Source: Haematococcus lacustris (taxonomy: Eukaryota; Chlorophyta; Chlorophyceae; Chlamydomonadales; Haematococcaceae). From it: a DNA stretch of 64,000 bases. The notes under the pieces were generated by a model that was given only the letters and a program-made list of their open reading frames with translations, searched no databases and was not told the origin of the DNA. Every line of letters begins with the position of its first letter. Position 1 is the first letter of the stretch. This document shows, piece after piece, positions 1,265 to 60,558 of the stretch. The translations under genes and the position numbers were made by a program. The stretch is taken from NCBI GenBank assembly GCA_030144725.1, contig JASKMD010000018.1, positions 2,558,321-2,622,320 of the forward strand, given 5' to 3'.

Positions 1265-4200
1265 TCATACTCCGCCTGTCAGCCTGGCCCCAGCATCCAT
1301 GAGGCGGCGCACAACCCCCTGGTGCCCCTTGGCAATGGCGCACCAGAGCAGCTGCTCCCCGGTGCTGCCCTCGGCTAGGGCGCCTGCACTCAACAGCAGT
1401 CCCACCACCTCCTGCACGATGCAGGACAGCAGGGCTTTGGTGCTCCATAAACAGTATGTCGGCGGCAGCGGCAGCGCTCGCAAACGTGAAGTGCAAATTG
1501 CGGCAGAGCACACGACGGCGATGGTGGTGTCCTGACGGGGAACACATCGTGGGATATCCGGTCGGCGCCTCACCTCGTGCCCGTTGTCTGCGGCCCACAG
1601 TAACGCCTCGCCGTCGCTTCCTCGCACGTCTGCACCAGCTGCTAAGAGCTCCCGGACAGCAGCAAAAGCGCCCATGGAGGCGGCAGTACGCAGGGGGGCA
1701 TCATCCGACACGTGCACGTCCGCTCCGGCCGCAATCTGCGCAGCGGCGAAGTGCGACCGGGCGCTGGCTGCGCGAGACACTCCCCTGGCAGCCTCCCTCC
1801 TGCTGCCGGCTGGAAGCTCAGGCAAGGCCTAGGTGGCACACGCCCTGACTCCTGTTTGTTTGAGGTGAGCAGTTGGTGGCTGGACTCTCCTGTCATGCCT
1901 GAGCAGTATGATTGAGGGCAACCTGGTTAAATGCTGATAGCTACTTGATGGCTGTTGTGAGCACATGGATGTCCCAGCCACGGACTCAGGGCAGGGGCTA
2001 GGGACGGGGGTTGAGGGGGTTCCTTTGGGTTCTTAGGATGGGTAGTGGCAGCAGGCCGCGCACCCTCCAGGCAGAAGCTCCTCCCTTCCTGCACGCTGGC
2101 GCTTCCGGAGTAGTCCTTTTGTTTTTTCTTTCTAGCGCAAAGTTGTAAGCTCTCATGCCCCTGGCAGGCTGTTGGCCGGCCCTGTGCTGGCGGCGGACCT
2201 CACCAACAGTCTCAGCAGTTGGACATTGCCAGTGCGTGCCGCAGCCTTCAGGGGCGCCTGGCCACGCACGCTGACGTCTGCTCCATGCGCCAGCTGCAAG
2301 GCATGCATGCAGGCATGAGCTCAGAAGGAGGCATGCCCCACAGCTCCCAGCCAGAAAGTCCAGGGTTGGCATATGATCGCCTTGCCCTTCAGCTATCCCA
2401 GCTGTGCTCTGGAAGCTGGTGGAAGCTGGTGGAAGCTGGGTAGCAGCTGGTGTCTCAGACCAATACCACTCGCCAGCAGGCACCCAGAGCCAGCTGTGGC
2501 CAGCCGTCCCTCAACAGCTTCGCAAAGGCCAGCAGCAGGCCCCAGCAAGCTGCACCAGCTGGGTGCCACCAGCACCCGCCCAACAGCCTAGCTGGGCACC
2601 GCCGTCCGCATGCCTGACCCTGACCCTGACCCTGACCGCTACCTTGATTCCACCCGGAGGGGTCTGCAAGACATGGCATGGCAACTCTGCACGCATGTCA
2701 GCTGACGCACCAGCTTGTATCAGGCCCACTGCATACTGTTGTGCTACAGACTCCCTCTGCAGGCTCCCTTTTCAGGCTCCTTGCACAACGCCCCTGCTCC
2801 CCCTAACGCCTCACCAGCAGCTGTGCCGTGGCCACGTGTTGGGCCTCGCAGGCCAGCCGCAGCGCCTGGCCCTCCACAGCGTTGACCAGGGCCCCATGGC
2901 CAAGCTGCAGCCAGGCAGGGAACACACACCAGCTCAGCTGCCTGCTGCTGCTGCCTACTGCTGCGCAACCTCCTGCTGCGCCACCTCCTGCTGCGCCACC
3001 CCTGTGCCTGCACTTCCCTGGATGTCGGGATTGGAGGGTGCAGGGCAGGCGGACCCGGGAGGCATAGCTACCGTGCACAGCGCCTGCTGCTGAGGGGCTG
3101 TTCCGTGTTGTGGGGTCTGCCTGGCTGTGTCCAGCTGGGGGGGCACTCGGGGGCGCATCAGCCTGCCTGCTCACCCAGCTGGTGTGGCCCCTGCCTAGGT
3201 CCCTGCCTGGCTGTGTCTGCCCTCTGCTGCTGCCGTACCAGCAGCTGCACCACCCCTAGGTGGCCGTGGGCCGCAGCCAGCCGCAACGCCTCCTCCTCGT
3301 TGGCGTGGCCATCAACAGACCTAGCAGGGGCAGGCAGGTTAGCAGGCAGGGTTAGGGCCAGGCAGGCAGCTGCAACAGTGTGAGAAGCTGCTGCTTCCAG
3401 GCACCAAGCGCCAGGGTCAGGTCAGGGCCTGGGTGAGAGTCAGGATCTGGTTGAAGAAAGGGTCAGGGTCAGGGTCAGAGTGAGGGTCAGTGTTAGGGGG
3501 CAGCAGTTACGAAGGCCGGCAGATCTGCGGCAGGATGCTGGCGAGCTCACTGTGCCAACAGGAAGCTGACCACGCAGCGCTGCCCCTCACGTGCAGCCAG
3601 CACCAGGGCAGCAGGCGCCCGGGCAGCTGCCTGGCCAGCGCCACCAGCCCCCCATAGAACTCTACATTGCAGCAGCAGCAGCAGCGGTGGCGGTAGCGAT
3701 GGTGGTGGCGGCGGTGGATTGGGGGGCAATGGGGGTTGAGTGGGCAGCTGATGACCCTGCCGGCCTGGTGCTGGTCAGCGGTGGTGACGGCAGTGGCAGC
3801 ACAGGAAGTGACTTCATTGAGGGAAGGGTGTGATGATGACCTGACGGGTGCAGTTTGGTAGAGAGAAGAGGTATGCCGGCAGTGTGGCCGTCAGCACTAG
3901 TGCCCGCCCACATGAGCTGACGGTCACGGCAGTTGTAAATGTAACGGTGTAAAGCCGGCACTGGCTGTTGCAGGGCAGGCAGGCATGGCAGCGCAGGTTT
4001 GAGGGCATGGGCATATGTGGCCTTGGTGGGTGTGGGTGTGCACTGGATGCTGGTGTGGTTCGTGGGTGTGGGCGTGGCTATGGGGTAGCTATGGGCAGAA
4101 ACGCACTGCAGGGCAGAAACATGCCTGCCTGCCTACTGCAGGCAGACCTACTGCACCCGCCTGCCGTCTCCTGACTACAAGCACCAGCAGCAATGTGGCA

Positions 4201-9313: not shown

Positions 9314-9813
9314 NNNNNNNNNNNNNNNNNNNNNNNNNNNNNNNNNNNNNNNNNNNNNNNNNNNNNNNNNNNNNNNNNNNNNNNNNNNNNNNNNNNNNNN
9401 NNNNNNNNNNNNNNNNNNNNNNNNNNNNNNNNNNNNNNNNNNNNNNNNNNNNNNNNNNNNNNNNNNNNNNNNNNNNNNNNNNNNNNNNNNNNNNNNNNNN
9501 NNNNNNNNNNNNNNNNNNNNNNNNNNNNNNNNNNNNNNNNNNNNNNNNNNNNNNNNNNNNNNNNNNNNNNNNNNNNNNNNNNNNNNNNNNNNNNNNNNNN
9601 NNNNNNNNNNNNNNNNNNNNNNNNNNNNNNNNNNNNNNNNNNNNNNNNNNNNNNNNNNNNNNNNNNNNNNNNNNNNNNNNNNNNNNNNNNNNNNNNNNNN
9701 NNNNNNNNNNNNNNNNNNNNNNNNNNNNNNNNNNNNNNNNNNNNNNNNNNNNNNNNNNNNNNNNNNNNNNNNNNNNNNNNNNNNNNNNNNNNNNNNNNNN
9801 NNNNNNNNNNNNN
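9314..9813. other. assembly gap of exactly 500 N
   Basis: The round size suggests a placeholder of unknown true length. The missing 3' exons of NTAQ1 may lie here. The right flank is a low-complexity array, a likely reason for the break. Confidence 0.95.
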
Positions 9814-42418: not shown

Positions 42419-45150
42419 AAGAAGAAGAAGAAGAAGACTACGCCGGTATTCACCGGCGTGCATTAAGGGAGGAGCAGCCGCCTGGGGCGCGGCCTGCTCC
42501 CACCATCAAGCTCGAGAAGCAGCCGACCCCCTACCCCCCCCCCTTTCTAGTAGCTCTAAGTCTGTAACTTGTTTTGGCAATGGTGTGGGCTGTTTCTACC
42601 GCATGTCTCGTGAGCTTGTTTAGTAGTTTTGTAGCGTTGGTTTGAGTGACCCCAAGGGCTATGAGGTGTTGACGTGTGTGTGTTTCATAGGTAATACCGC
42701 CTATACCCAGTAGGATTGGTCTGATCTCAACCATGTGGCCTATCTTGCGCATGGTGTGTGCCAGTTTTGTGTGTTGGTTTAGGGCCTTGTCCAGTTGCTC
42801 CATCCACCTCGAGTCCGCACAGTATTTGATTTCTATGATGGTGATCTGTTTAGTGGCTTTGCCGCGTTTGCCCGTCTTCTTTTGAGGCGTCACCATGATT
42901 ATGTCCGGTCTGGTAGTGTTTTTGGTCGCTGTTGGTTTCATACCGAGTGCCCGTAGCGTGGTGTGTAGTGTGTCGTTAGGGAGGTCAAGGTTTTCTCTAG
43001 CGCCCTTCTCCCAGCTGCCGGTGTCCGCAAACCTGTTGCATCCGCCCAGGGTTCCTTTGCTGATGGCTTTGGCGATGAGGCGGCCAGCTCCGTTGTGCCT
43101 CTCTTGCACGAGTGGCAGGGTCTCGTTGCATCCCGAGAGCAGGTGTGTGGCACTGTCGGCCTCCCCACAGAGGGGGCAGCGGTCGTCTGTCGCCTGCTTC
43201 CAGCGCATAGCTAGTTTCTGGTTGTATAGTCCTCCGGTACGGTAGAGTAGGGCGGTCCTTTGCGCGGGGATGGAGATGGTCGCATCGGTCATCACTCTTT
43301 CGCCCGCTCCTTTTGCCGCGGCTTTGGTGATATCTTGGGTCATCTGGTAGTAGATGCTGTCTGGGTTGGCGAGACCTAACTTGTGCTTGCTGTGCATGTG
43401 TGCTCGCACGCTTTGTCGGCAGTCCGGCAGCGGGGCGAGGGTTTCGCTATCGGTCCCGTGGTTGAGCCAGATACCTCTCTCCTTGGGTGTGGTCGGGTGG
43501 TACTCTAGTGTGTTTGCCTGCTCCGGGTGTAGCGCTGCGTGTTTAGCGAGGGCATCAGCGCCTTCGTTGCCGATGATGCCCGAGTGGGCCCGGACCTTGT
43601 AGAATTGGGTCATGACGGGGCTAGCGATGATGAGGGTGGCGATGTCCGTCAGGATGTCGTTGTGTCTATGATTAATGAGGGACATCGGGTTAGCCAGGGC
43701 TCGGCGGATCTGATAGAGAGAGCATAGGCTGTCGGTGGCGATGCGTCTGGCCCCCGCTTTCAGTGCCGCGTGTATCGCTGTGAGTTCTGCCTTGTTGATG
43801 GTGTTGTTCTCTGGGTCGTTCATCGCAATGGTAAGTAGGGCGTTGCTTTCCGGAATATAGACCCCCGCCCCGACGCGCGCCGGGTCTGGCTCGGATGTCT
43901 TAATGCAGCTGCCGTCAGTGTACGCTATCGTGGTCCATTCGGTGATGGCCATCCGCGGTAGCGTGGTGGAGTGGTGCGTGAGCTGGTGTTGGCTGCGTGT
44001 GTGCCCCAGCGTGGGTAGAGCCCTGTCCAGCGGGAGGCGGAGGTGTTGTTTGTGGCCACTGGGGAGGGCGGCTGGCTGTTTTTGATTGTGAGGTCTGCGA
44101 AGGAGAGGGTGTGTCTCCCTGTCCGGGTGTAGGGCAGTGGCTGTGCTAGCCATCCATCCTTGTGGGTTGCCTTTGGTGGTGAGTAGTTGCCCTGCTTCAT
44201 TCCATATGACGTACACGAGGAGGGTGGCGTGCTTGCCAAGTTTGGAGCAGTTGGTATTGTTGAGGGGTATGCTGGCCAAGTGCTGACAGTACTCTGGGTA
44301 GCGTCTCAGGGTGTCAATGTGTTTGGGGTAAGAGATGCCCTTCTTACCAGGGATCAGCATAATGGTGGCCATGGCCTCCTCCTGGTGTGCTGAGTGTATA
44401 GCATGGTTGACGCATTTTAGGGCCACCGCATCATCGGCTGGTACGTTCCATGTGGATAGCCCAGTGTGGCGTACTAATAGGCAGTTGTGGTGTGCCCCAA
44501 AGGCCGTGTCATTGATGTCAGGGCTCCAGTAGGTAGTAGTTTCTGGTCTAACTGTAAGTGGATCAGCCCACCTTTGGACGGTGCTAGTGAAGGATCGTGT
44601 GGTGTGTAGGGTGGTAAGGGCTTTGTCTTGTGCCAGTCTCATGGGGTGGCGGCTGCTCTGTGTGTCCCGTCTCCTTAGGAGGGCCACCAGTTCTGTGGCC
44701 AGGTTTCGTGTGTGTGGTGTGTGTTGTAACCAAGCGTGTAGGTGTTGGTGTTGTTGCTTGGTCAGGAGGCCTACTGTGCGGCCCGACTCGTCGTGGACCG
44801 TTACGTGTTGCACTAGGTCGTGTTTGGGCATGATGGGCTCCCCCGTGCTGAAGCTCATCGCTGGGGTGGTCATGTCGGGGTGCAGTTGGAGGAAGGTTTC
44901 GCATTTGCCCGTCCCGACGATGTCCGTCTGCGGGTTGATGGGGTATGTGTGGAAGGTGGCCTTCGAGTGTAGGTTGGTGCACCGGGGTAGCCAATTGTGC
45001 GGGTCCGGCAGTCCCTGCCGGGTGTGGCTTGGTAGTTTCGTATCAGGCCGCGCGTATCTAGCTTCTTGTATCCTCTTATTCTCCTCTTCGTAGTCATTGC
45101 GTCGCGCCAGGTAGTCCAGGTGTGCCGTGATGAGATGCAACGGTTTGCAT
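42419..45150 (-). mobile_element. Dualen/RandI-type LINE, copy 2 (5' truncated)
   Basis: A (CTT)n tail on the minus strand (42419-42436), the 8-bp hairpin form of the 3' UTR, then the C-terminal third of the polyprotein. Homology fades near 45140, next to the likely start of the gypsy-2 LTR. No convincing target-site duplication is seen. Confidence 0.88.
42531..45140 (-). CDS. LINE copy 2, RNase H and restriction-like endonuclease part
   Basis: About 870 open codons, starting after the PHD finger (first homologous residues [13 protein letters not shown]). Contains RNase H (YTDGSC, DALAKHA), the CCHC knuckle ([17 protein letters not shown]) and RLE (RPDIIMV, then EIKYC). No frameshift. No start codon of its own is expected. 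Confidence 0.87.
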   Translation of the reverse strand: MHLITAHLDYLARRNDYEEENKRIQEARYARPDTKLPSHTRQGLPDPHNWLPRCTNLHSKATFHTYPINPQTDIVGTGKCETFLQLHPDMTTPAMSFSTGEPIMPKHDLVQHVTVHDESGRTVGLLTKQQHQHLHAWLQHTPHTRNLATELVALLRRRDTQSSRHPMRLAQDKALTTLHTTRSFTSTVQRWADPLTVRPETTTYWSPDINDTAFGAHHNCLLVRHTGLSTWNVPADDAVALKCVNHAIHSAHQEEAMATIMLIPGKKGISYPKHIDTLRRYPEYCQHLASIPLNNTNCSKLGKHATLLVYVIWNEAGQLLTTKGNPQGWMASTATALHPDRETHPLLRRPHNQKQPAALPSGHKQHLRLPLDRALPTLGHTRSQHQLTHHSTTLPRMAITEWTTIAYTDGSCIKTSEPDPARVGAGVYIPESNALLTIAMNDPENNTINKAELTAIHAALKAGARRIATDSLCSLYQIRRALANPMSLINHRHNDILTDIATLIIASPVMTQFYKVRAHSGIIGNEGADALAKHAALHPEQANTLEYHPTTPKERGIWLNHGTDSETLAPLPDCRQSVRAHMHSKHKLGLANPDSIYYQMTQDITKAAAKGAGERVMTDATISIPAQRTALLYRTGGLYNQKLAMRWKQATDDRCPLCGEADSATHLLSGCNETLPLVQERHNGAGRLIAKAISKGTLGGCNRFADTGSWEKGARENLDLPNDTLHTTLRALGMKPTATKNTTRPDIIMVTPQKKTGKRGKATKQITIIEIKYCADSRWMEQLDKALNQHTKLAHTMRKIGHMVEIRPILLGIGGITYETHTRQHLIALGVTQTNATKLLNKLTRHAVETAHTIAKTSYRLRATRKGGG

Positions 45151-45159
45151 GCATGCTTG

Positions 45160-45361
45160 TCCATGCAGCCCGGCAGCGGTGGTATTTTTACATGTCATGC
45201 ACGGTTAGATATCATCTGTTTTCTGCATGGAACCTTCTAGATATGTGAGACGGTGTGAGCTACCCTGTTATAAGCACAGAACAGTTGTTTATGGACATTC
45301 CGTGTAAGACGCAAGTGCGTGTCACCGCTCTCCCGGATTCCTGTGGCTTCTCCCCGTTACA
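45160..45361 (+). repeat. putative 5' LTR of gypsy element 2
   Basis: Runs from a TGTCCATGC start to GTTACA (TG...CA ends), with a TATAAG motif near 45271. The 5' limit is inferred because there is no second LTR. Confidence 0.5.
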
Positions 45362-45364
45362 TTT

Positions 45365-45382
45365 TGGTGCCCTCAATCGGGA
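45365..45382 (+). promoter_or_regulatory. candidate primer-binding site of gypsy 2
   Basis: TGGTGCCCTCAATCGGGA, 3 nt after the likely LTR end. The TGG start fits pairing to a tRNA CCA end. Confidence 0.55.
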
Positions 45383-45415
45383 CAAACCGCCTTAACTACG
45401 GAGACTAGAGACTTG

Positions 45416-46327
45416 ATGGAGGAACTATCGCCCATTGCGTATCAAGTCTCCGAGCTCATGCGCCAAGTCGGCGAGCTCACTCTTTTGACCGGCAGCCTGC
45501 GGCAGCAATTCGAGCACTTCGTCACAACGCAGCCCGTTGCTACCCCCGCTTCAACACCTCTAGAACTTTCTGGACAGTCCGCCCCTCCCGCAGCCACCTC
45601 CGTTCCGCTACCTTTTCGGCCCCCTCCACCACCGTCCTTCTGTGGGACCCCAAACGCGGACGCGGGTCAATGGCTGTGGCGCATCGACAACCATTTTGAC
45701 CTTTTCGCCATGCCTGCCCAACAACGGCTGTTGGCTGTTGCTTCCTACCTCGACGGCGCTGCCCTCACCTGGTACCGCAGCCTGCTGTCCAGCCAGGCCC
45801 TCAGCTCTTGGGACAGTTTCAAAGCCAGTTTCACGCGCCAGTTTACTCCTGTGAACCAGCAGCGGCATGCAAGGGATCAGCTGGCAGCCTGCCATCAGAT
45901 CACATCAGCCCGGCAATACATCATGGAGTTCAGCAATCATTGCCTCCTCATCTCTGACTTGTCTCCTGCTGAGAAACTGGATCGTTTCCTTAGAGGTCTC
46001 AAGCCGGCTGTGAGGCGGGAGCTGGAGCTGAGGGAGCCTACCTCTTTTGAGGAGGCTGCCGCCATGGCTGACCGCGTTGATGCTATCACCTTTGGCAGCC
46101 GCCCATGCCTCCTCAAGCTCCCGGAATCTGAACCAGTGGCTGCCATGGAGCTTGATGCCCTGCAGGTCAGCAAGGGCCCCCGCTTATCAGCGGCTGAGCG
46201 CCAACAGCTGCGTGCTTTGGGAGCTTGCTTCTATTGCCGCAAGCCTGGCCACCTAATGAAGGATTGTCCCAACAAGCCACCACGCCCAAACGACGTTGGG
46301 GGCGTGCGGGAGGCAGCCCGCCGCTGA
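45416..46327 (+). CDS. gag: gypsy 2 gag
   Basis: 303 codons from the ATG at 45416 (the first in the leader frame) to TGA. N-terminal short coiled region, Pro-rich linker, capsid domain ([33 protein letters not shown]), then the knuckle [14 protein letters not shown]. The pol frame overlaps by about 100 nt at -1. Confidence 0.88.
46285..46291 (+). promoter_or_regulatory. candidate -1 frameshift heptamer C CCA AAC
   Basis: CCCAAAC in the correct register (CGC CCA AAC) just after the gag zinc knuckle and inside the gag/pol overlap. A -1 slip continues as CGA CGT TGG into the pol frame. Confidence 0.55.
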
Positions 46328-48304
46328 GCCCACCATCCCTTCTGCCACCCTCTTCCTTAACTCCTCGCTTTGAGCTGGCTCCTCGTGTTCCCTACCACCT
46401 ACCTCAACTCCCCGCTCCTCTTCCTCGGCCTCCTCCCCTTCGTCCTCCTCCACCTCCTCTTCCTCGGGCTCCTTCTCCCCGGCCTCTTCCCCCTCCTCTT
46501 CGGCCTCTTCTCCGTGCCCCCTACTGGCTACCCACACTCCCTCTTCCTCCTACACCACAACCCTCTCTTCCCTCTCCACGTTTCCGTGCCCCGCTCTTCT
46601 GCCTTACTGCGCCCTGCCTGGCCCGCGGTGCTAAGTGCCCTCCACGCAGCCCCCTTCCTCAGCAGTCAGCTCAACCCATGGGCAGCTCCAAGTCTCCGGG
46701 ACAGCCTACTCTGGCTGTAGAGTCCTCCCCATGCCCATCCGCACCTGTGGGCAGTGGTACTCCGTGTCACTCCTCGTCGCCTAGCCTGTCAGAGCCCCTA
46801 GTCATGTCGTCGCTCTCCGTGGACTCCAAGCCTTTCATCCTCCATGGAACCTTCTCTGGACACCGTGCTCGTTTCCTGCTGGACAGTGGTGCCACGGGCA
46901 ACATTGTCAGCAGCCGCTTCTTGCAGCAAGCCGGCCTGCGCATGGCGGGCAAAGCTGCTCCTGGCCGTCTGCTCCTTCCTGGGCCCTCCCCTTCCTACCT
47001 TCCCACCTATGAGCTTTCCCACTGCACGGTACACCTCTCTACCTACCATGATCGGGTGCCTTTCGTTATGGCTGATATCAGCAACGCCGACTACGATGTG
47101 GTGTTGGGCAAGCCATGGCTCACAGCGAAGAACCCTGATATTGACTGGCCTCTCGAGCGCATCACTCTCCGCCATGCCGGGGCCGTACACACCCTAGCTG
47201 CTCCACCTTTTCCTGCCCCCAACCCCTCAGCCTCCCAGCTGTTGTCACCTGCGCGCTTCCGCAAAGCCGCCCGCAAGGACGCCGTATTCGTGGCAGTTCT
47301 CACGGACTCAAGTCCTCCACTTTCACCCTCTCCAGCTGTGCCCTCCTCCCACACTTCAACCTCAACCTCCCCGCCACCTGCTCAACCACAGTGGCCCCCT
47401 TCTCTTTCCCCAAGCGCTACCGCCCTACTATCTGAGCACATCGAGGTCTTTCCCAAGGAGCTTCCATCCGTGCATGATCTACCACATCGCTCTGTTGATC
47501 ATGTGATCCAGCTGGAATCCGGCACCCCTCCCAAGCGCCCTGTCTATCGCATGTCTCAAGAGGAGCTAGACGAGCTCAAGCGGCAACTGGACGAACTCCT
47601 AGCCAAGGGCTACATCAGGCCATCCACGTCACCTTTTGGCTCTGCAGTCCTCTTTGTGCGCAAGAAAGACGGGAGCCTACGCTTGTGCGTAGACTACCGG
47701 GCCCTAAACCAGCTGACCATCAAGAATCGCTATCCCCTTCCCCGCATTGACGACCTCCTGGACCAGCTGGCTGGTGCTAGAGTCTTTTCCAAGATTGACC
47801 TCAAGTCTGGGTACCATCAGATCCGAGTGGCCGAGGCTGACATCCACAAGACAGCATTCCGTACCCGCTACGGCCACTATGAGTACACCATCATGCCATT
47901 TGGCCTGTGCAACGCCCCCGCCACCTTTCAACGCCTCATGAACGACATCTTCCGCCCACACTTGGATCAGTTTGTACTAGTCTACCTGGACGACATTCTC
48001 ATTTACTCCCGGTCTGAGGCTGAGCACCTGGAGCACCTCCGCACCGTTCTAGGCCTCCTTCGCCAACACCAGCTATATGCCAACCTCTCCAAGTGCGCCT
48101 TCTTCCTTCCCTCTATGGACTTCCTGGGTCACATCATCTCGGCTGCGGGCATCCATCCTGACCCAGCTAAGATTCGTGCCATGGTTGAATGGCCGGTACC
48201 CCGCAATCTCAACGACCTCCGCTCTTTCCTCGGCAGTGCCAATTACTATCGTCGCCACATCCACCACCATGCCCACCTCATCCTTCCCCTCACCAACCTC
48301 CTCA
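46291..48304 (+). pseudogene. pol: gypsy 2 pol (protease and RT), truncated
   Basis: Long Pro-rich linker, aspartic protease ([13 protein letters not shown]), then RT with [44 protein letters not shown] and YLDDILIYS. Coding is lost after [13 protein letters not shown] where LINE copy 3 begins, so RNase H and integrase are absent. Confidence 0.88.
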
Positions 48305-51300
48305 AGGCCCTCCTCGGGGCTGGTATTCTGTGTGAAGAGTTGTCCAAGCAATTTGGTTTCCTTAGGGTAGAGTTCTTGTCCTTCCTGGGTGGCAGTGAGC
48401 TGCGCCGTGGTGGCATGTAGGAGTTGTCTGGCTCGTAGGGTGTGTCGCAGCATAATGAGCATGCGGTGTCCATGCTTGGCAGCTTGAGCGTAGAGCCAAG
48501 TGATCTGTTTGTGTAGCATGCATCTGGTTATGTGGGCATGTGTGGTGTCTGTGGACTGGAGGCTGTGTAGGAGGGCTGTAGTGTTTCTGGTATGGTACTC
48601 TTTGGCGGTTGAGCTGATGCCAAGGCCGAGTTTGTCGATGTCCTCCCTGACAACGGCATTGGGTGTGCCTAGTGGGAGTCTGAGTTTTTTCTTAATACAT
48701 TGATTAATTGCTCTGTCGTAGAGGTCTAGGTCTCCTGGTGTGCATGGGGCTACGCAGAAGCTATAGGCCAGACTGGGGATGATGGCTGTTTTGATGATGT
48801 GGATGGCTTGTCTGGCGCTGGCGAATGAGCGTCGTAGTCTTTCTAGTTTCTGTCTGAGTTGTGTCATCATGGCTATGTGTTGTGGTTTCCAGTTGAGCGT
48901 CATGGTAAGTAAGACACCGAGGTAAGTGAAGGGGGAGGTCGGTTTGAGGTAGGTAACAGGCTTCCCTTGTAGCGTTACGGCTTGCAGTTCTCTACGGGCT
49001 TGCTTTTCCGCTTCTGCCATGGTGCTGCATCTGCCGGATTGGTGCGCTTTGTGGAGCGCCGCTGTGGCGAGGGTTTTGCTGTGGGATACGATTAGGTGGC
49101 CCCAATCCGAGTAGGCGGAGAGCTTGTCTGCCTGACAGCGTAGGTTGCTGATCGAGTTGCATAGGATAGCGATGTCATCGGCGTAGTCGATGCTGCCGAT
49201 TGTAAATCGCCCGGCGCTGTCGGTTGTGTCGGATGTAAATTTGTACCCCCTCGCTCCTACTTGGAGCCAGCGCAGTAAGGGTTCGATGTAGATGAGGAAC
49301 AGGAAGGGTGAGAGTGAGTCGCCCTGGATGGTGCCCCGGTCTACAGGTACCGGGTCGGTGGGGCCGTAGGGAGTTCTGAAGCGCGTTGTAGCGCCCGTGT
49401 ACAGGTCCTTCACCGCGTCTGTGGCGTCGGTGGGGAAGCCAAGGTCGTGCATGATCCATAGCAGTTTGTCTTGGCAGGTGGTGTTGAAGGCACTAGTGAA
49501 GTCGACCAGGAGCGCATAGATATCTACTTTGGCTAGCTTGGCGTCTTCAAGGGCCATGACCAGCATTTGGAGCTGTTGTGTGGTGTCCCTATGGGAGCGG
49601 AAGCCTGCTTGGCAGTTACTTAACATCCCGTTAGCCTCAGCATACTCGTACAGCGTTTTGGTGATGAGGCTGGTCCAGAGTTTGTAGATGGTATTGGCCA
49701 GCCCAACAGGTCTGTAGGCGTTGAGGTCTGTTTCTTGGCCCTTGTCCTTGTAGAGCAGGCAGGTGTCACTGGTTTTCCATGTTGTGGGTGTGCAGCCAGT
49801 GGCCCACATGATGATGAACAGTTGGTGTATGGTGTCCCTCATCTCCCATGGCAGCATCTTGATGATCTCGTTTTCAATGCCGTCTGGGCCAGGCGCTTTG
49901 CCCCCTGCTAGTCTGCTGATGCATTCTTGAAATCCCGCTTTGTCCATGATGGCTGTGTGCATCCAATGTACGTTTTGGCAAGTGTGCAACGTGAAGGGGT
50001 CCACGGCTTTGGGGCGGGTCCAGGGATAGTTTCTGGTTTGTGTGTTTGTGTAATGGCCTGTTTTGGGGGTCGGCGGCGTGAGCTTTTGTCTGTAAGCGGC
50101 GGTGATAATCCGGTTGAGGTCGGCCGGGGCAGTGCAGATGTTATTGGTATCGGGGTCGGCTAGTGCCTGCAGTCCTTTGTGGTCGGTGCGAGAAGGGCGT
50201 AGTATGTACTTGTTGGCTTTTTTGGGTTGGGTGCTGATGAGGTGTTGCATTCTGAGACGCGCCTGTGCGATGGCAAGTGCGGAGTCGTCGTCATCTAGCT
50301 TGTGGATTTGGTCGCGGTAGGAGTTGGTCAGCTGGGCGAGCGCGGCTTGCACGTGATTTTCGGTTGTACCGTCGCCCTGGCGTGCTTGCACCGCCTCCTT
50401 TACCTCCGCGTTGATCGTGTCTGTCTCTGGGAGTAGGTCGTCGATAGACGGGTGGACGCTGTTTTGTTTGTATAACATTCTAGCCTTCCGGCTGAGTTCT
50501 CTGGTGGTTTTGAGCTTTTTCCCTAGTGCCTGTCTGATCTTGCACATGCTCCTGCGTTGGTAATGCTGGCCTCCTCTGGTCAACGTTTTGGTGTTGCATG
50601 TCTGCATGGCAGTTCCCCTGCAGGTTTCCAGGAGCGTTGTGAGCATGGTGGCTGCGGTGTCGACAGCTTCTCTAGCCGGTAGGCCTGCCACTAGTGTCAA
50701 GCGTTGTGGTTGTTGTGGGTTGGCCTTGTCTAGTGTGGTCAGGAAGTGGGTAGCATCTGTGTACATGGGAGCTAGGTATGCTGTCAGTTGTGCATGCAGT
50801 TGTGGAGCGCCTGAGCTGGGTTGTTGCACTCCAAGCCGGTATGCTTCCCTATCCTTGTTGGTGATTGGGGTGGTGAGAATGGTGTGGCTGTGTTTTAAGG
50901 GTTGATGTGTGGCTGCTAGATCTATGCCCAGTCTGGTAGTGGTGAGTGTGGCGGTGAGCGGTCTGTGGTCGCTGAGGTACGCGTTTGTGTCGACGTGCGT
51001 GCGATGCCTAGGGCCTTGTCTCGCGTCGCGCGTCAGGATGGCGTCGATGCGGCTGTTGCAGTGTGGTTGCTGGTAGGTCCAGGCCCGGTCGCCGGGGTCA
51101 GCTTCGGATAGGCGCAGCTCTGTGGCGAACTCCCTCATCATGTGGTCTTGTGGGTATTCAGTGTGTTCGGAGCGGTCCTCTGCCCTCATCGTGGCGTTGA
51201 TATCTCCCGCCAGGATGAGTGAGCCGGGCAGGCGTCCAGTGGCTGTTCGTATGTGTTCTTGCATCTTTCTCCTTAGCGGGATCGCGTCGTCGTTGTTCCC

Positions 51301-51612
51301 TGACGGCCAGTACGTGGCAACGAGTGTGAGTTCCTCGCTTTGCCGTTGGCGGAGGCTTAGGATGACGCATCGGGTATTTACATCCGCATCTGTACACGGC
51401 GGCAGCATGGTGGCTTGCATCTGGATAGCTAGATCGTGTCTGATGCCAATGAGGACCTCACTATGGCCTTCGTGACGGTGGACGGTGTAGTTGGGCATAA
51501 CCCTCTTCAGCCAGCCACAGCTAGGCTTGTTGCTCTTGGGTTGGGTCATAGTCTCAGTGAGGATCAAGATGTCCGGGCTATGTTTGTGCACCAGGTTTAG
51601 GGACCTCGTTTC
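48305..51612 (-). pseudogene. LINE copy 3 APE and RT region
   Basis: Rejoins the frame after the single-base shift ([18 protein letters not shown]). APE with GDINAT and SDHRPL, then RT with [17 protein letters not shown] and YADDIAIL. Homology ends at LLGQLFTQN. Downstream residues in the same frame are antisense of gypsy 2 and not part of the element. Confidence 0.85.
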
Positions 51613-53680
51613 TAGATCTGCATAGGCCTCTGACATTGAAGGTTGTGAGGGTGATGTGTTGCCTGTTGTGGGTTGCTTGGGGCGGTTCGGTTGGGGGGTT
51701 ATTGTGTTGGCTCGTGCAAGAGTCATTGTCCGGCGTGGTTTGTGGTGTCTCGGCTATGGTGGGGTTGAGCCTTGTGGAGTGGGCTCCGGTTGTGGGTTTG
51801 CGGAGGTATTGGGACATGAGGGTTTGTGTGTGCGTGTCGTTGCGTTGTGCCTTGGTGGCTCGTACCCGCTTAGCGGACGGGCCAATGATGGTATCGACCC
51901 GCGTGGTGGGTCGATTGGTACGCGGCGTACCTGAGGGGGCTGGCGGGCGGAGGGTAACAGTGGGAATGTCCCGGCGCTGTCGCGACCGGGCAGGTTCCTC
52001 GTGTGATGGAGTGTCCTCTACTGTAGTGTTGCGGTTGGTGTCTTGTGTAGGGTTCTTGTCGGCGTCCATGGTGGTCCCGGGCGGTGGGGCGAGTGTCTCT
52101 CCTACCTCTATGTTGGTGAGATCAATCGTGTGATCCTGAAAGTGTGCTGTTAGTGCTGATGCGGTGGTGGCCTCCAGCGGGTCCGCTATCCAGATCTCTC
52201 TCCTAACGAACCTTGTGTGTCTTACGTTGCCTGTGCAGATGGTGAGCATGTTCCCTTGGAGGCGTCCCCAGTCGTTAGGTGTGGAGAGTGGTTTGGGCAC
52301 ACGGTTGAGTGAGTCCAGCTGGTACCAGCCTTGTTGTGTGTGTTTAAGGACAGTTGCATGGTGGTGTGATAGCAAGATAACAACATCAGTATGTGTCGCA
52401 CCCGTGCTAGCGATAGCTGTAGTGATCGCCTCAGGTGTGATACTGGAGGTTGGTAGGTAGGCCGTTGCTGGGTGCAGGTACGTACGCATCTCAAGGTGTT
52501 TGCGGTGTAGGTAGTGGTTCAGTGTGTCCGACGAGAATCTGCCTTTCTCGTGGTAGATGTGATCAGTATTGAAGGTTCGAATTGTATGCCCTTCTTCCCG
52601 TGCTGTTTGTGCTAGGTATTGTAGGTGCTCGGCTAGATCCTTGCAGTGTCTGATGGCTGCATGGTAGTCTATGCATTTCTTTCCCATGGCCATGTTGAAA
52701 GCATGCACTAGGCAACACTCTTCGTACTGCCCTTCCATGTAGATTTGTGTGGGGTTTTGGACCGGTGTATACGTGGGGTCGGTTGCTGTGGTGTTGTGAT
52801 CGTGGTTGCTTGGTTGTTCCATATGGCTGATAATGTTGTTGATGCCTTTTTCTTCGCACCGGCGTATCTGTTCCCTTGAGCGGGTGTTGGGCGTGATGAC
52901 AAAGAGTTGGTGCACATTCCGTTTGGTTGCGGTAGGGACATGCAGGAGGGTTGTGGCTGTCGTTTCCATGGAATCCAGTAGGTACCAAGCGCCGTTAATG
53001 CACTTCATGGCCATGCTGTGGCCTGTTTTTTTGCACAAAAAAGTGTGTGTTCCGTATTGGCCGGCAAGGTTCCCAAGGTTGTCATTGGTCCAGTCACTGG
53101 GTTGGGTGAGTAGGGCAACGCTCTGTACTGCTAGGCCGTAGTGGGTATGTAAGTACATCTCTATGACTTCGTCGGAATAGCCGTCAGCGCCTCGTGCCAT
53201 TAGCCATGCGCCGCGCTCAAAGTGATCCGCTATTCGGGGGAGCCTGCTCTCATAGAAGTTGTCTATGTCTTGCATGGTGACCCATTCATGCCCCGCGGCA
53301 TTGTTCAGGGAGTAGACTTGACACGCGGAGCTGTCTGTATCTTGTTTAAAATGTTTAATAGCTGGGCCTGGGTTAGCTTCCACGTCCCCGGCGGCTAGTA
53401 GGAGCCAGGCCACGTAGACTGCCCGTGCGGCGGCTATGGGGTTAAAGGTGCATGTGGTCCAACTAGTTTCGCCTGTAGTTGTTTGATAACAACAGTAGAC
53501 ATGGAGAGTGCTGTTGTATTGGTAGGCTGTGTATGGGCGGCCGTCCTTAGCTCCATGCGTGGAGAGGTGGAATCTGTTGGCGAGTTTGCTTATAGAGCTA
53601 GAGGCGGCTAGGGTGCCATCTAGGCCGGTCATAAGGTTGTACCCGATGGCTCGTGTTGTGCATCTGTAGGAGCCTAGTCG
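51578..53680 (-). pseudogene. LINE copy 3 N-terminal region: leader, 2A, two Josephin-like protease domains, start of APE
   Basis: Open from the N gap to a stop at 51578. A leader of about 100 residues is seen, ending in YVAWLLLAAGDVEANPGP. Domain 1 (about 53340-52950): Cys in SSACQVYSLNN (codon 53323-53321), His in TGHSMAMKC (codon 53020-53018), then WYLLDS. Domain 2 (about 52745-52290): QYEECCLVHAFNMAMG, then LSHHHATVLKH and GWYQLDS. The Cys, His, Asp/Asn order and spacing resemble Josephin deubiquitinases. A Pro/Thr/Arg-rich linker leads to the APE domain ([12 protein letters not shown]), which is then frameshifted by one extra base near 51612. The protease assignment is inference from motif order; other papain-like folds are possible. 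Confidence 0.7.
53363..53389 (-). other. 2A ribosome-skipping motif in the LINE leader
   Basis: Codes G-DVEANPGP. The core D-V-E-x-N-P-G-P consensus is complete, and hydrophobic WLLLAA precedes it, as usual. By known 2A action the ribosome skips the bond between the last Gly (53368-53366) and Pro (53365-53363), releasing the leader from the protease/APE/RT part. Confidence 0.85.
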
Positions 53681-54180
53681 NNNNNNNNNNNNNNNNNNNN
53701 NNNNNNNNNNNNNNNNNNNNNNNNNNNNNNNNNNNNNNNNNNNNNNNNNNNNNNNNNNNNNNNNNNNNNNNNNNNNNNNNNNNNNNNNNNNNNNNNNNNN
53801 NNNNNNNNNNNNNNNNNNNNNNNNNNNNNNNNNNNNNNNNNNNNNNNNNNNNNNNNNNNNNNNNNNNNNNNNNNNNNNNNNNNNNNNNNNNNNNNNNNNN
53901 NNNNNNNNNNNNNNNNNNNNNNNNNNNNNNNNNNNNNNNNNNNNNNNNNNNNNNNNNNNNNNNNNNNNNNNNNNNNNNNNNNNNNNNNNNNNNNNNNNNN
54001 NNNNNNNNNNNNNNNNNNNNNNNNNNNNNNNNNNNNNNNNNNNNNNNNNNNNNNNNNNNNNNNNNNNNNNNNNNNNNNNNNNNNNNNNNNNNNNNNNNNN
54101 NNNNNNNNNNNNNNNNNNNNNNNNNNNNNNNNNNNNNNNNNNNNNNNNNNNNNNNNNNNNNNNNNNNNNNNNNNNNNNNN
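53681..54180. other. assembly gap of exactly 500 N
   Basis: Separates LINE copy 3 (-) from LINE copy 4 (+). The 5' ends of both copies are missing here. Confidence 0.95.
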
Positions 54181-57100
54181 CGACCACAGGCCACTCACCG
54201 CCACACTGAATACAGCCCGACTGGGCATAGACCTGGCAGCCCCACACAAACCTCCAAAGCACATCCACACCATCCTCACCACCCCCATCACCAATAAGGA
54301 CAGGGAAGCCTACCGCCTGGCAGTGCAACAACCCAGCTCAGGCGCCCCACAATTGCATGCAGAACTGACAGCCTTCTTAGCCCCCATATACACAGAGGCT
54401 ACCCACCACCTGGCTACACTTGGCAAGGCCAACCCCCAACAACCACATCGCCTGACAACAGTGGCAAGTCTCTCGGCCAGGGAAGCTGTAGACACCGCAG
54501 CCACCATGCTTACACATCTCCTACAAACCTGCAGGACGGCAGCTATAAAGACATGCAACACTAAGACCCTTACAAGGGGAGGCCAGCACTACCAACGCAG
54601 GACCATGTGTAGGATTAGACTGGCACTGGGCAGAAAGCTTAAGACCACTAGAGACCTCAGCCGGAAGGCTAACTCCCTCTTTAAGGAAACCAACGTGCAC
54701 CCGACAATCGACGATCTCATTCCAGAGACAGATGCGACAAACGGAGAGATAAGGGACGCGGTGCAAGCGCGCCAGGGCGACGATACAACCGACAATCACG
54801 TGCAAGCCGCGCTAGCCCAACTGACCAATACGTACCGCGACCAAATCCACCAACTAGACGACGACGACTCCGCACTCGCCATCGCGCAAGCCCGCGTCAG
54901 AATGCAACAACTGATCAGCACCCAGCCCAAGAAGGCTAACAAACGTATCCTACGCCCGTCCCGCACCGACCACAAAGGCCTGCAGGCGCTAGCCCCAAGA
55001 CCGGCCACTACACTAACACACAGACACGAAACTACCCGTGGGCTCGCGCCAAAGCAGACGACGCCTTCGCAATGCACGCATGCCAAAACATACACTGGCT
55101 GCACACAGCCATCATGGACAAGGCAGGTTTCCAAGAATGCCTCAGCAGGCTGGCTGGAGGCAAGGCACCGGGACCAGACGGTGTGGAAAACGAAATCATC
55201 AAGATGCTGCCATGGGAGATGAGGGACACCATCCACCAGCTGTTCATCATCATGTGGGCCACTGGCTGCACACCAACCACGTGGAAGACCAGTGACACAT
55301 GCCTGCTCTACAAGGACAAAGGGCAAGAAACGGACCTTAACTCCTATAGGCCAGTGGGCCTAGCCAACACCGTTTATAAGCTATGGACCAGCCTCATCAC
55401 CAAGACGCTGTCTGAGTATGCTGAAGCTAATGGGATGCTCAGCAAGAACCAGGCTGGGTTCCGCTCCCACAGGAACACCACGCAACAGCTGCAGATGCTT
55501 GTCATGGCCCTTGAGGATGCTAAACTGGCCAAGGCAGATATTTACGCGCTCCTGGTCGACTTCACCAGTGCGTTCAACACCACCTGCCAGGACAAACTGC
55601 TATGGATCATGCATGACCTAGGCTTCCCCACAGACGCTACTGACGCAGTTAAGGACCTATACACGGGCGCCACAACGCGCTTTAAAACCCCGTACGGCCA
55701 TACCGACCCGATACCCGTCAACCGGGGCACCATACAAGGCGACTCCCTCTCGCCCTTCCTATTTCTGATCTACATCGAACCCCTCCTGCGGTGGCTGCAA
55801 GTGGGCGCGAGGGGCTATAAATTCAAATCAGCAACAGCCGACAGCGGGGAACGCGTCACCGTCAGCGGCATCGACTATGCAGATGACATCGCTATACTAT
55901 GCAACACCCTTCGCAACCTCCGATGCCAAGCAGACAAACTCTCAGCCTTCTCGGACTGGGGTCACCTCATCATCTCACACAGTAAAACCCTCGCTACAGC
56001 GGCGCTCCATCACTCGGTCGAAACAGGCATGTGCAGCAACGCGGCCGAAGCGGACAAGCGGGCCCGCCAACAACTCCAAACCGTCAGCTTACAAGGGAAA
56101 CCCGTCACCTACCACCGCCCGACCTCACCTTTCACCTACTTGGGTGTGCTCATCACCATGACGCTGGACTGGAAACCACAACACACCGCTATGATTACCC
56201 AGCTACGCCAAAAACTAGAGAGACTCAGACGCTCCTTTGCTAGCGCTAGACAGGCCATACACATCATTCGCACGGCCATCATACCCAGCCTAGCCTACAG
56301 CTTCTGTGCCGTGCCCTGCACCCCGGGGGACCTTGAGCTGTACGATAGGTCCATCAACCAATGCGTCAAGCTCAAACTCAGACTCCCCCTGGGAACGCCC
56401 AATGCCATCATCAGAGAGGACGCTAGCAGACTAGGCATAGGCATTAGCTCCACTGCCCAAGAGTATCACGCCCGCAACACGACAGCCCTCACACACAGCC
56501 TGCAGTCCACAGATGCGGCACACGCCCACATCTCGAGGAGCATGCTGCACAAACAAATCACATGGCTCAGTGCCCAGGCTAGCACACAAGGACACCGCAT
56601 GCTCACCCTCCTTCATCATACCCTTAGGGCACGGCAGCTAGTCTATGCCTCTATATCAGGGTTGTCGGCCACGGAAGGGGGACTACCCCTATACCATGAA
56701 GAGTGCCAAACACTCGGCCGCCTCATCACACAAGCCAGCAGCTCTCAAGCACACGACGTCGTTAGTGCCAGCATCACCTGCCTCAAAAGCCTAGGCATCA
56801 CGCACGCTTCTGAGCTCAGCTGCAAGGGCAACACACACATCATCACCGGTAGCATGCTCACATCAAAGTACGGGAAAAAGGTCAAGCAGAAGCACATTAT
56901 CGCCCTCAACAAACTCGCGGCCATGGCGGCCCAACCCTCATGCCCAGACGCGACCGCAACGCGTGCAATCCGAGACAGCCGCAACACATCACTCGATCTC
57001 CCGCTCGACCAACGCAAAATCACAACCTGGGCCGCGGGCCTCACGGAACTTGCGCCCACACCCGCAGTGCCAGATACCAGAACTCGCTATATGGATATGA

Positions 57101-60100
57101 AAGCGTATGCGGTCATGCACGCAACTCAACCAGCAACGGCGGACCGGGCCGCAGCGGCACCCGCAGTCCATGAGGCCATTCGGACGAGCTCACGACTGCT
57201 CAAACGAGAGCAACGGGCAACACAATCGGCCCCAACGCAGCCCAATCCACCCAAGGTGGGCACGAAACGGAACAATGAGGGCAGACAGACCCAAACTATC
57301 CCGCAAGATATAGTGCGCATAGTAGGCCTTGACCTCCCAGGACTGTCCAGCTGGAAGGTGGATAAAGCCTGCCGATGTAAACCCAAGAACATAGGCTGCA
57401 TACTAGGGGCCATGTACGGCCACCAAGAGGCCATTACTAGCATAGATGGATGGCAATGGGACGGCATCAACAAAGAAAGCTACTACAAGGTGCACTGGAA
57501 GCCCACAGTCATAGATAGATGGGCATTACCACTATGTGCAGAAGAAGGCTATACACCCACACACATAGAGACCATCAGCAGGGAAGAGGCTAAGGACGTG
57601 TGCACCTGTGAGCTGTGCTGGCTACCAAGAGGAGACAGCCCAACGTGCCACAACTGCAAGAGGGCCTACCACCCAGCCTGCCTTGAGGAAGCCCACCTGT
57701 CAGGGCACAAGGAACCAGGATACTGGCTGTGCCCTATATGCAAGTTTGGTAGCAATGACTTCAAGACTACCATGCGTCAGTCAGCGCAGTCGGACCTCAT
57801 ACGAGTACACTGGCACCCCACCTTCGAACCGGCGCCGCTCATCACGGCACACCTGGACTACATGGCAAAGCGCAGCGAATACGACGAGGAAAACAGGCAG
57901 ATACAAGAGGCCAGACATGCGAGGCCCGACACGCACCTGCCGGCCCACACCCGACAGGGTCTACCGGACCCGCACATCTGGCTACCCCGGTGCACCAACA
58001 TGCACTCGAAGGCCACCTTCCACACCTACCCCATCAACCCGCAGACGGACATCGTCGGGACGGGCAAGTGCGAAACCTTCCTCCAACTTCACCCCCACAT
58101 GACCACCCCCGCGATGAGCCTCAGCACGGGAGAGCCCATTATGCCACAGCACGACCTAGTGCAACACGTCACGGTCCACGACGAGTCGGGTCGCACGATT
58201 GGCCTCCTGACAAAAGACCAACACCAACACCTACACGCTTGGCTACAACACACACCACACACACGCAACCTGGCCACAGAAGTAGCTGCCCTCCTAAGGA
58301 GACAGGACACACAGAGCAGCCACCACCCCATGAGGGTAGCACAGGACAGGGCCCTTACCACCCTGCACACCACACGATCCTTCACTAGCACCGTCCAAAG
58401 GTGGGCTGATCCACTCACAGTTAGACCGGAAACTACTACCTACTGGAGCCCTGACATCAATGACACGGCCTTTGGTGCACACCACAACTGCCTACTGGTA
58501 CGCCACACTGGGCTATCCACATGGAATGTACCGGCAGACGATGCGGTGGCCCTGAAATGCGTCAACCATGCTATACACTCAGCTACCCAGGAGGAGGCCA
58601 TGGCCACCATCATGTTGATCCCTGGGAAAAAGGGCATCTCCTACCCCAAACACATCGACACCCTAAGACGCTACCCAGAATACTGCCAGCACCTGGCCAG
58701 CATACCCCCCACCAAGACCACCTGCCCCAAGTCAGGCAAGCACGCCAACCTCCACATCTACGTCATCTGGAATGCAGCGGGACAACAACTCGTCACCAAA
58801 GGCAACCCCCAAGGATGGCTGGCTAGCACTGCCACTGCCCTCCACCCCCAACGAGACACACACCCAATCCACAAGAGACCAACGAATCAAAGCCAACCGG
58901 CCACACCCCCAAGCGGCCACAAACAACACATGCGCTTGCCGTTGGACAGGGACCTCCCCACCGCGGGGCACCAGCGCGGCCACCAACAGCTCACGCAACA
59001 CTCCACGACACAACCACGGATGGCCATCACCGAATGGGCCACGCTCGCGTACACGGACGGCAGCTGCATTAAGACCTCGGGGGCAGCCCCAGCGAGCGTC
59101 GGGGCGGGGGTCTACATCCCGGAGACCAACGTCCTCATCACCGTCACCCTGGACGACCCAGAAAGCAACACCATCAACAAGGCGGAACTCACGGCGATAC
59201 ACGCGGCACTCACAGCGGGGGCCAAACGCATCGCCACCGACAGCCTCTGCTCTATCTACCAGATCCGCCGAGCCCTCGCTAACCCGATGTCGCTTATCAC
59301 ACACAGGCACAACGACATCCTGACCGCGATCGCTACCCTCATCATCGATAGCCCCGTCACGATCCACTTCTACAAAGTCCGGGCCCACTCGGGAATTATC
59401 GGCAACGAAGGCGCCGATGCCCTCGCCAAGCACGCGGCGTTACACCCAGAGCTTGCCAACACCCCGGCCTACCACCCGACTACACGGAAAGAGACCAACA
59501 CCTGGCTCAGCAACGACGCCGACGGTGAAATCCCCGCCCCATTGCCGGATTGCCGCCGAAGCGTGCGAGCACATATGCAACGCAAACACAAGCTTGGCCT
59601 TGCCAACCAAGACAGCATCTACTACCTGATGTCCCAAGAAATCACGAAAGTCGCAGCGAAAGGCGCGGGCGAAAGAGTGATGACCGACACGCACATCTCC
59701 ACTCACGCACAACGAACTGCCCTACTCTACCGCACCGGCGGGCTCTACAACCAAAAGCTAGCTCTGCGCTGGAAACGGGCGACTGACGACCGTTGCCCAC
59801 TTTGCGGGGAAGCCGACAGTGCCACTCACCTCCTATCGGGCTGCAGCGAGACCTTACCGCTTGTGCAAGAAAGGCACAACGGGGCCGGTCGCCTCATCGT
59901 TAAAGCTATCAGCAAGGGAACCCTGGGTGGGTACATCCGGTTCGCGGACACCGGCAGCTGGGAGAAGGGCGCGAAGGAACACCTTGACCTTTCCTAACGA
60001 CACACTACACACAACGCTAAGAGCACTCGGACTGAAAACAGCGGCAACCAAAAACACCACTAGACCAGATATACTCATGGTGACGCCGCAAGCGAAGGTG

Positions 60101-60558
60101 GGCAAAGGCGGCAAAGTCACAAAACGGGTCACCATCATAGAAATCAAATACTGCTCGGACTCAAGGTGGACGGATCAATTAGACAGGGCACTCAACCAAC
60201 ACACCAATCTAGCTCAAACCTTACGCAAGGAAGGCCACATGGTTGAGATCAGACCTATACTCCTTGGCATAGGTGGCATAACGTATGAAGCACACACACG
60301 GCAACACCTCCTGGCCTTGGGGGTCTCACAAGATAGCACTACTAAACTTCTACACAAGTTAACAAGACACGCAGTGGAGACAGCCCACTCCATTGCAAAG
60401 ACCAGCTACAGACTCAGGGCTACTAAGAGGGATGGAGGGTAGGGGGGTTGTCTCTCTTCTTGCTTGGTTGGTGGGAGCAGGCCGCGCCCCAGGCGGTAGC
60501 TCCTCCCTTAATGCACGCCGGTGAATACCGGAGTAGTCTTCTTCTTCTTCTTCTTCTT
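54181..60558 (+). mobile_element. Dualen/RandI-type LINE, copy 4 (3' complete)
   Basis: Enters from the gap at the SDHRPL motif of APE and runs to a 3' UTR with the hairpin (60510-60530) and a (CTT)n tail (60537-60558). It meets the 3' end of an unrelated LINE tail-to-tail at 60559. Confidence 0.9.
54182..60442 (+). pseudogene. LINE copy 4 polyprotein, broken twice
   Basis: Frame 2 from 54182 to about 54993, where an out-of-frame deletion of roughly 90 nt relative to copy 1 shifts coding to frame 1. That part runs to 59997 with RT (YADD near 55876), PHD finger (57610-57760), RNase H (59035-59445) and CCHC knuckle (about 59790-59845). An extra T near 59990 (CCTTTCC for CCTCCC) shifts the last part, with RPDILMV and EIKYC of the RLE, to another frame ending at 60442. 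Confidence 0.88.

Follow-up and report, generated by a model that had tools for sequence, protein, structure and literature searches.

The window analysed here (a stretch of 64,000 nucleotides of Haematococcus lacustris DNA) carries on its minus strand a copy of a non-LTR retrotransposon (LINE), whose parts follow one another in the order leader, 2A, Josephin-type protease domains, APE, reverse transcriptase (RT), RNase H and restriction-like endonuclease (RLE) (Table 1). The copy is broken, as an N run cuts the leader, the frame changes, and an LTR-type element is inserted at about 45.3–48.4 kb. In other copies, the open frames around the protease reach up to 4,916 codons (C2:1206960). The RNase H domain (PF00075) is found in both window copies, with E-values of 2.2e-16 and 3.1e-15, and the plus-strand copy shows in addition a match to a PHD finger (PF00628) between RT and RNase H, which is weak (E = 0.014) and below its cut-off. 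Because the plus-strand copy begins inside the APE, its 2A site is out of view.

Table 1. Features of the two LINE copies in the window
Feature	Position (nt)	Strand	Basis
Restriction-like endonuclease domain with CCHC, RPD and ExK motifs	42534–43211	-	motifs and R2 profile match
RNase H (PF00075), past the inserted LTR-type element	43533–43931	-	Pfam
Reverse transcriptase (PF00078)	48913–49725	-	Pfam
APE-type endonuclease (PF03372)	50965–51597	-	Pfam
Frame change between protease frame and APE frame in the window copy	51578–51753	-	ORF translations
Best stretch of the second Josephin domain (PF02099); whole-protein E = 4.1e-14	52280–52726	-	Pfam; Josephin-2 profile match
First Josephin-like domain together with the beginning (Pro1) of the downstream protein, borders approximate; conserved Cys at residue 15 post-skip	52964–53365	-	alignment
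2A core GDVEANPGP; skip predicted to fall between Gly and last Pro (53365–53363)	53363–53389	-	translation
Extended 2A, TFNPIAAARAVYVAWLLLAAGDVEANPGP, 29 aa	53363–53449	-	translation and family comparison
Leader protein, C-terminal part; remainder inside N run 53681–54180	53450–53680	-	translation
Second copy in head-to-head orientation beyond the N run, beginning inside APE	54181–60442	+	RT and RNase H by Pfam; RLE-type C-terminus in translation

The inserted LTR-type retroelement (45308–48420, plus strand) lies within the minus-strand copy between RT and RNase H, and its translations include zinc-knuckle gag-like and pol-like frames with YLDD. Two N runs of exactly 500 each occur in the window (9314–9813 and 53681–54180), representing either assembly gaps or withheld stretches; the latter parts the two head-to-head LINE copies and masks the 5' ends of both.

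The last 226 residues of the element contain CCHC, RPD and EIK motifs, and a profile of the RLE domain (nine rows) matches the C-terminal endonuclease end of the R2 proteins 9nl3 (E = 2.8e-6) and 9dou (E = 7.4e-6). With an APE upstream of the RT and an R2-like RLE downstream of it in one element, both endonuclease types are therefore present, and this combination is the defining feature of Dualen (PMC4640811). The sequence-only reading had called the element a dual-endonuclease LINE, and the Pfam matches to APE, RT and RNase H, together with the CCHC, (R/K)PD and ExK motifs and the R2 profile match of the RLE, agree with it. By its domain content the element is evidently of the Dualen/RandI kind; the APE, RLE and RNase H are shared with the published description of Dualen/RandI of Chlamydomonas, also a green alga.

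The 2A motif, AWLLLAAGDVEANPGP, is encoded on the minus strand, in frame within the LINE (core at 53363–53389). The segment ARAVYVAWLLLAA precedes GDVEANPGP (53389–53363), and the wider translation around the core reads ...TFNPIAAARAVYVAWLLLAAGDVEANPGPAIKHFKQ.... The sequence NPGP occurs only once across the six frames of the window, and the frame that bears it is open from the N run at 53681–54180 to nt 51578, continuing into the Josephin domain. Both the core and the hydrophobic run before it (ARAVYVAWLLLAA), which the sequence-only reading had reported, are confirmed by the translation, and the domain order bears out its suggestion that a 2A at this position would separate the leader from the protease, APE and RT part.

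The motif was compared with known 2A (StopGo) systems. A survey of about 10,000 viral StopGo sequences (2026 PNAS, PMC12846837) gives the core as (D/G/C/N)(V/I)ExNPGP and describes L-rich motifs upstream of it in which (A/S/C)G is followed by the Asp; it also reports that four motif representatives, one of them L-rich, were all active in reticulocyte lysate. The window copy has this core, in frame within a longer ORF. The stretch WLL[LM]A[ACS]G is common to all 12 family representatives compared, and across the genome WL[LM][LM]AxG, which formed no part of the search pattern, lies directly upstream of the core in 114 of 116 sites read (see below), the two exceptions (L055 and L168) both being without a leader match. 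The ending (A/S/C)G is found in 111 of these sites, with five outside the surveyed class (4 GG, 1 VG). The algal sites thus share with the L-rich viral sequences (motifs 2 and 6, LLLLSG-like, in PMC12846837) an L-rich stretch, (A/S/C)G, Asp and then (V/I)ExNPGP, but differ in placing a Trp before the Leu run (114/116) and in having Ala at the x position in 96 of 116 sites, where the survey associates Ser.

A search of the genome (308 Mb, 597 contigs) gave 408 matches to the coding pattern of DVExNPGP against 3 for the reversed pattern, and 182 matches to that of DIExNPGP against none. A chance origin of the motif was rejected on these counts (590 vs 3). Of these 590 sites, 116 were read (100 listed DVE sites and 16 DIE sites picked to cover codon variants), and a leader and/or Josephin match adjoins the motif in every one. 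In 92 of the 116 loci neither a stop nor an N run interrupts the frame between -150 and +197 aa. The same leader and 2A are found in protein P0127, which has a different locus-tag prefix (V8C86DRAFT). Locus L019 has two different LINE types on its plus strand, 1.6 kb apart with an N run between them, an F2-type leader with DVEANPGP (1501–1524) and an F11 sequence with DIEENPGP (3107–3130).

Ascertainment bias, the loci having first been fetched by the motif, was met by a protease-based search blind to the motif and by codon counts on WLLLAAG. The query of the blind search was the protein immediately downstream of the 2A, which gave 147 scored hits from 750 candidates. Contigs C1–C56, whose listing of DVExNPGP sites was assumed to be full, gave 37 Josephin hits, and in 35 of these the motif stands unaltered where it was expected; among the remaining 110 hits 58 were read, with the core kept in 56. 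In total 91 of the 95 copies read (of 147 hits) keep the 2A core; these are not independent events, because copies within a family share descent. Two of the four misses have unrelated upstream sequence (L102, L124) and two are mutated, L103 breaking after NP and L143 reading DVVANPGP. The possibility, raised in the sequence-only reading, that the motif might be missing from other copies is thus contradicted by its retention in this motif-blind set. The motif was likewise present in all nine proteins, among the first 126 fetched, whose profile match spans the site (P0004, P0008, P0011, P0020, P0027, P0028, P0031, P0033 and P0039), although in P0020 the residues immediately upstream of it differ.

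Conservation was measured on an alignment of 12 family representatives, and codon differences were counted over all of their pairs, which are not independent of one another. In this alignment a 17-column window at the 2A is the most conserved of the leader-protease region (0.863 vs a mean of 0.48). The pN/pS ratio of the 2A core is 0.067, but since the core was itself chosen by the search pattern, the fairer test of selection is WLLLAAG, for which pN/pS is 0.095, with 246 differences that are synonymous and 54 that are nonsynonymous when all pairs are summed; an ungapped comparison of the preceding 13 codons gives 0.942. Over the nearly constant peptide pS is 0.59–0.71. The constraint, as judged from these counts, evidently acts on the peptide rather than on the nucleotide sequence, and it is a sign of selection, not of skipping activity. 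That the motif is short, and that all of its families lie in one genome, is what chance resemblance or a functionless hitch-hiking sequence would have in its favour; set against the 590 matches to 3, and the high pS over a nearly unchanging peptide, such an origin has a negligible probability.

Taken with its upstream context, the motif is very probably a 2A of the working type in a family of Dualen/RandI-like LINEs, by which one ORF would give rise to a leader and to a protease-APE-RT-RNase H-RLE protein. A ribosome completing ...WLLLAAGDVEANPG would release the leader as the nascent peptide, and translation would then restart at the Pro, which would become residue 1 of the second protein. 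The latter would contain the protease, APE, RT, RNase H and RLE domains and have a free N-terminus, separate from the leader. In Chlamydomonas the 2A of FMDV functions, with variable efficiency (PMC6952782), which favours the proposed skipping.

The leader has about 150 conserved residues, is basic, and in most families includes a hydrophobic stretch. Of the 28 loci that have about 1.5 kb of sequence upstream of it, 23 show a frame still open where the sequence ends, partly by way of tandem repeats, and any placing of the translation start would be conjectural. Such repeats were seen at L004:2242–3023 and L014:3032–3315, with units of 114 and 117 bp (each divisible by 3), and proteins P0008 and P0027 have repeats within the N-terminus. 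The tandem repeats upstream of the leader may be promoter units of a 5' UTR rather than protein.

A 19-aa hydrophobic peak overlapping the 2A was seen in 11 of 12 families, and in 8 of 12 a second hydrophobic stretch begins 137–167 aa before the 2A. These stretches hint that the leader may be membrane-associated, in which case selection could favour freeing the enzymes from it. They would also suit a different explanation, in which selection preserves the segment chiefly for its role as a membrane anchor or hydrophobic signal and skipping is absent or partial, an unskipped fusion being membrane-bound and a skipped protein free, as with the 2A-like signal sequences of sea urchin; a precedent for dual targeting is described in PMC4981915. 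A pure anchor, however, would need no DxExNPGP, whereas the polar core is constrained like the hydrophobic part (it was in the search pattern) and persists in 91 of the 95 blind copies, and the 2A is here internal, not N-terminal. An anchor as the main function is accordingly considered unlikely.

The protein downstream of the 2A has two Josephin stretches by the count of Pfam PF02099, which gives a location for the better one alone. In this second domain C, H and D are invariant in 15 rows, and in a profile search against solved structures they align with the Cys, His and Asp of Josephin-2 (6pgv, E = 1.3e-4), so that the catalytic Cys, His and Asn/Asp of a Josephin protease are predicted to be present. 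The first stretch is a weak match to the family, and the solved-structure profile matched the second domain only; the first was taken as a Josephin-like domain of its own because Cys, His and Asp are invariant there too. Counted from the skip, the conserved Cys of this first domain is residue 15 in the family of the window copy, and residue 26, 36 and 38 in L005, L022 and L027, which belong to families with an insert. The LINE polyprotein thus shares PF02099 and the aligned second-domain residues with the Josephin (ataxin-3/JosD) cysteine proteases, but differs from them in having two tandem Josephin-like domains, the first weakly matched.

As the Josephin domains follow immediately and the motif lies at a domain border, the motif might be thought to be where the proteases of the element bind or cut, the split then being proteolytic. 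This is highly improbable, given that the motif fits the 2A core, that its upstream context falls within the surveyed class in 111 of 116 sites, and that Josephin relatives exist outside Haematococcus without it.

Among the 120 RT matches listed (of 226), 84 were relatives outside Haematococcus, and NPGP was found in none of these. Most are uninformative on the 2A site, because the N-terminal profile matches no more than 5 of the 84; these 5 lack the 2A, and its conservation is therefore shown within one genus only. The nearest species-named RT match outside the genus, among the matches listed, is from Parachlorella kessleri (44%). A search by N-terminal profile for 2A-bearing relatives gave four hits, none clearly outside Haematococcus (two from Haematococcus and two labelled Bosea sp.). 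No relative was found in the viral contigs searched, and the GTDB genomes searched gave one, without a 2A; these searches outside the genus were of low reach, candidates being limited by shared words and length. Josephin matches lie near the N-terminus in some outside relatives (from residue 10 in P0060 and residue 38 in P0120), and others have long parts upstream of the match (P0068, P0108, P0111).

Some of the database entries call for comment. Proteins P0001 and P0004, labelled Bosea sp., carry the algal LINE and are probably Haematococcus contamination of a bacterial assembly. Locus L029 (PUMO01000201.1, labelled Mollicutes bacterium, MAG isolate B1Sed10_225, from sediment) has two Josephin-like domains and no 2A, in a frame of 1360 codons that is open at both ends; it is a relative at 25% identity and is likely to be eukaryote contamination. 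PF12237, the PCIF1 domain, occurs in related LINE proteins from metagenomes (P0042, P0048, P0054 and many more), whereas the precomputed domains shown for the Haematococcus hits do not include it.

Within Haematococcus, the identities and trees of the leader and of the first Josephin-like domain (Jos1) disagree between families. The leader of F3 (L005) is 75% identical to that of F2, while its protease domain is 65–67% identical to F8/F10 and only 41% to F2. In F6 (L009) the leader is nearest to F5 (43%, vs 22–24% to F1 and F2), whereas the protease domain is 82–87% identical to F1 and 52% to F5. Loci such as L008, L010 and L019 have an F2-type leader joined to an F1-type 2A and protease, with 21 F1-like residues before the core Asp; best hits also place L036 in this class, which it represents in the trees. 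Between P0008 and P0011 the RT is 99% identical while the leader is 27% and Jos1 38% identical.

The exchanges were further examined by AU tests, for which the groups were named after the trees were seen. Leader data reject the grouping of F6 with L013 (p = 1.6e-7) and of L036 with F1 copies (p = 0.0016), and Jos1 data reject F2 with F3 (p = 5e-75), L036 with F2 (p = 1.5e-51) and all three together (p = 1.2e-7). Two groupings, whose rejection would have completed the case for exchange, were not rejected at the 0.05 level, F3 with F8/F10/L094 on leader data (p = 0.092) and F5 with F6 on Jos1 data (p = 0.063). When leader and protease were typed by best BLAST hit to 17 references (groupings of our own, five of the references being among the counted loci), the 116 loci showed seven combinations: A-a (52 loci), A-d (17), B-a (13), C-c (13), B-b (10), B-d (3) and D-d (3), the other 5 loci being typed on one side only. 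The 2A is present in all seven, as follows by construction from the motif-based fetch, and the blind set shows rare loss. By these comparisons families have evidently traded leaders and proteases, the breakpoints lying next to the 2A, and the clearest cases are supported by trees. Since in F3 the identities switch between the two protease domains too, the 2A is one favoured joint and need not be the only one.

The 2A could, more speculatively, be the joint at which the LINE is rebuilt, any leader being placed before any protease and the free protease N-terminus being restored, a reading to which we give rather less than an even chance. Leader and protease would then need no mutual fitting, because the 2A would cut the products apart during translation, and a free protease N-terminus might itself be a selected trait; such an N-terminus is found in at least two relatives without a leader.

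2A-like sequences are known in LINEs of trypanosomes and animals, in elements of the APE type such as L1Tc of Trypanosoma cruzi and those of sea urchin. As in these, a D(V/I)ExNPGP core lies in frame within the protein of the algal LINE, which differs in being a dual-endonuclease element with the 2A placed before Josephin proteases. A full-text search of the open-licence literature found no report of a 2A in Dualen/RandI or in any green alga, so that the statement of the sequence-only reading that none was known for this clade holds within those texts. As judged from this literature, the use of a 2A appears to be new for a Dualen/RandI-type clade, for a green alga and for a position ahead of a Josephin protease; a survey of cellular proteomes (Rao 2025), mentioned in PMC12846837, might list these proteins.

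According to the viral survey (PMC12846837), recoding by 2A is rare other than in viruses, and here about 590 coding matches occur in a transposon family of a single algal genome. As the leaders of distant families differ down to 15–34% identity, natural variation in the context of the 2A can be read directly, and these native algal sequences are candidates for co-expression tools. The use of 2A would be extended to the dual-endonuclease clade of LINEs and to green algae, and the arrangement suggests a route by which a LINE may obtain two proteins from one frame while trading its 5' modules.
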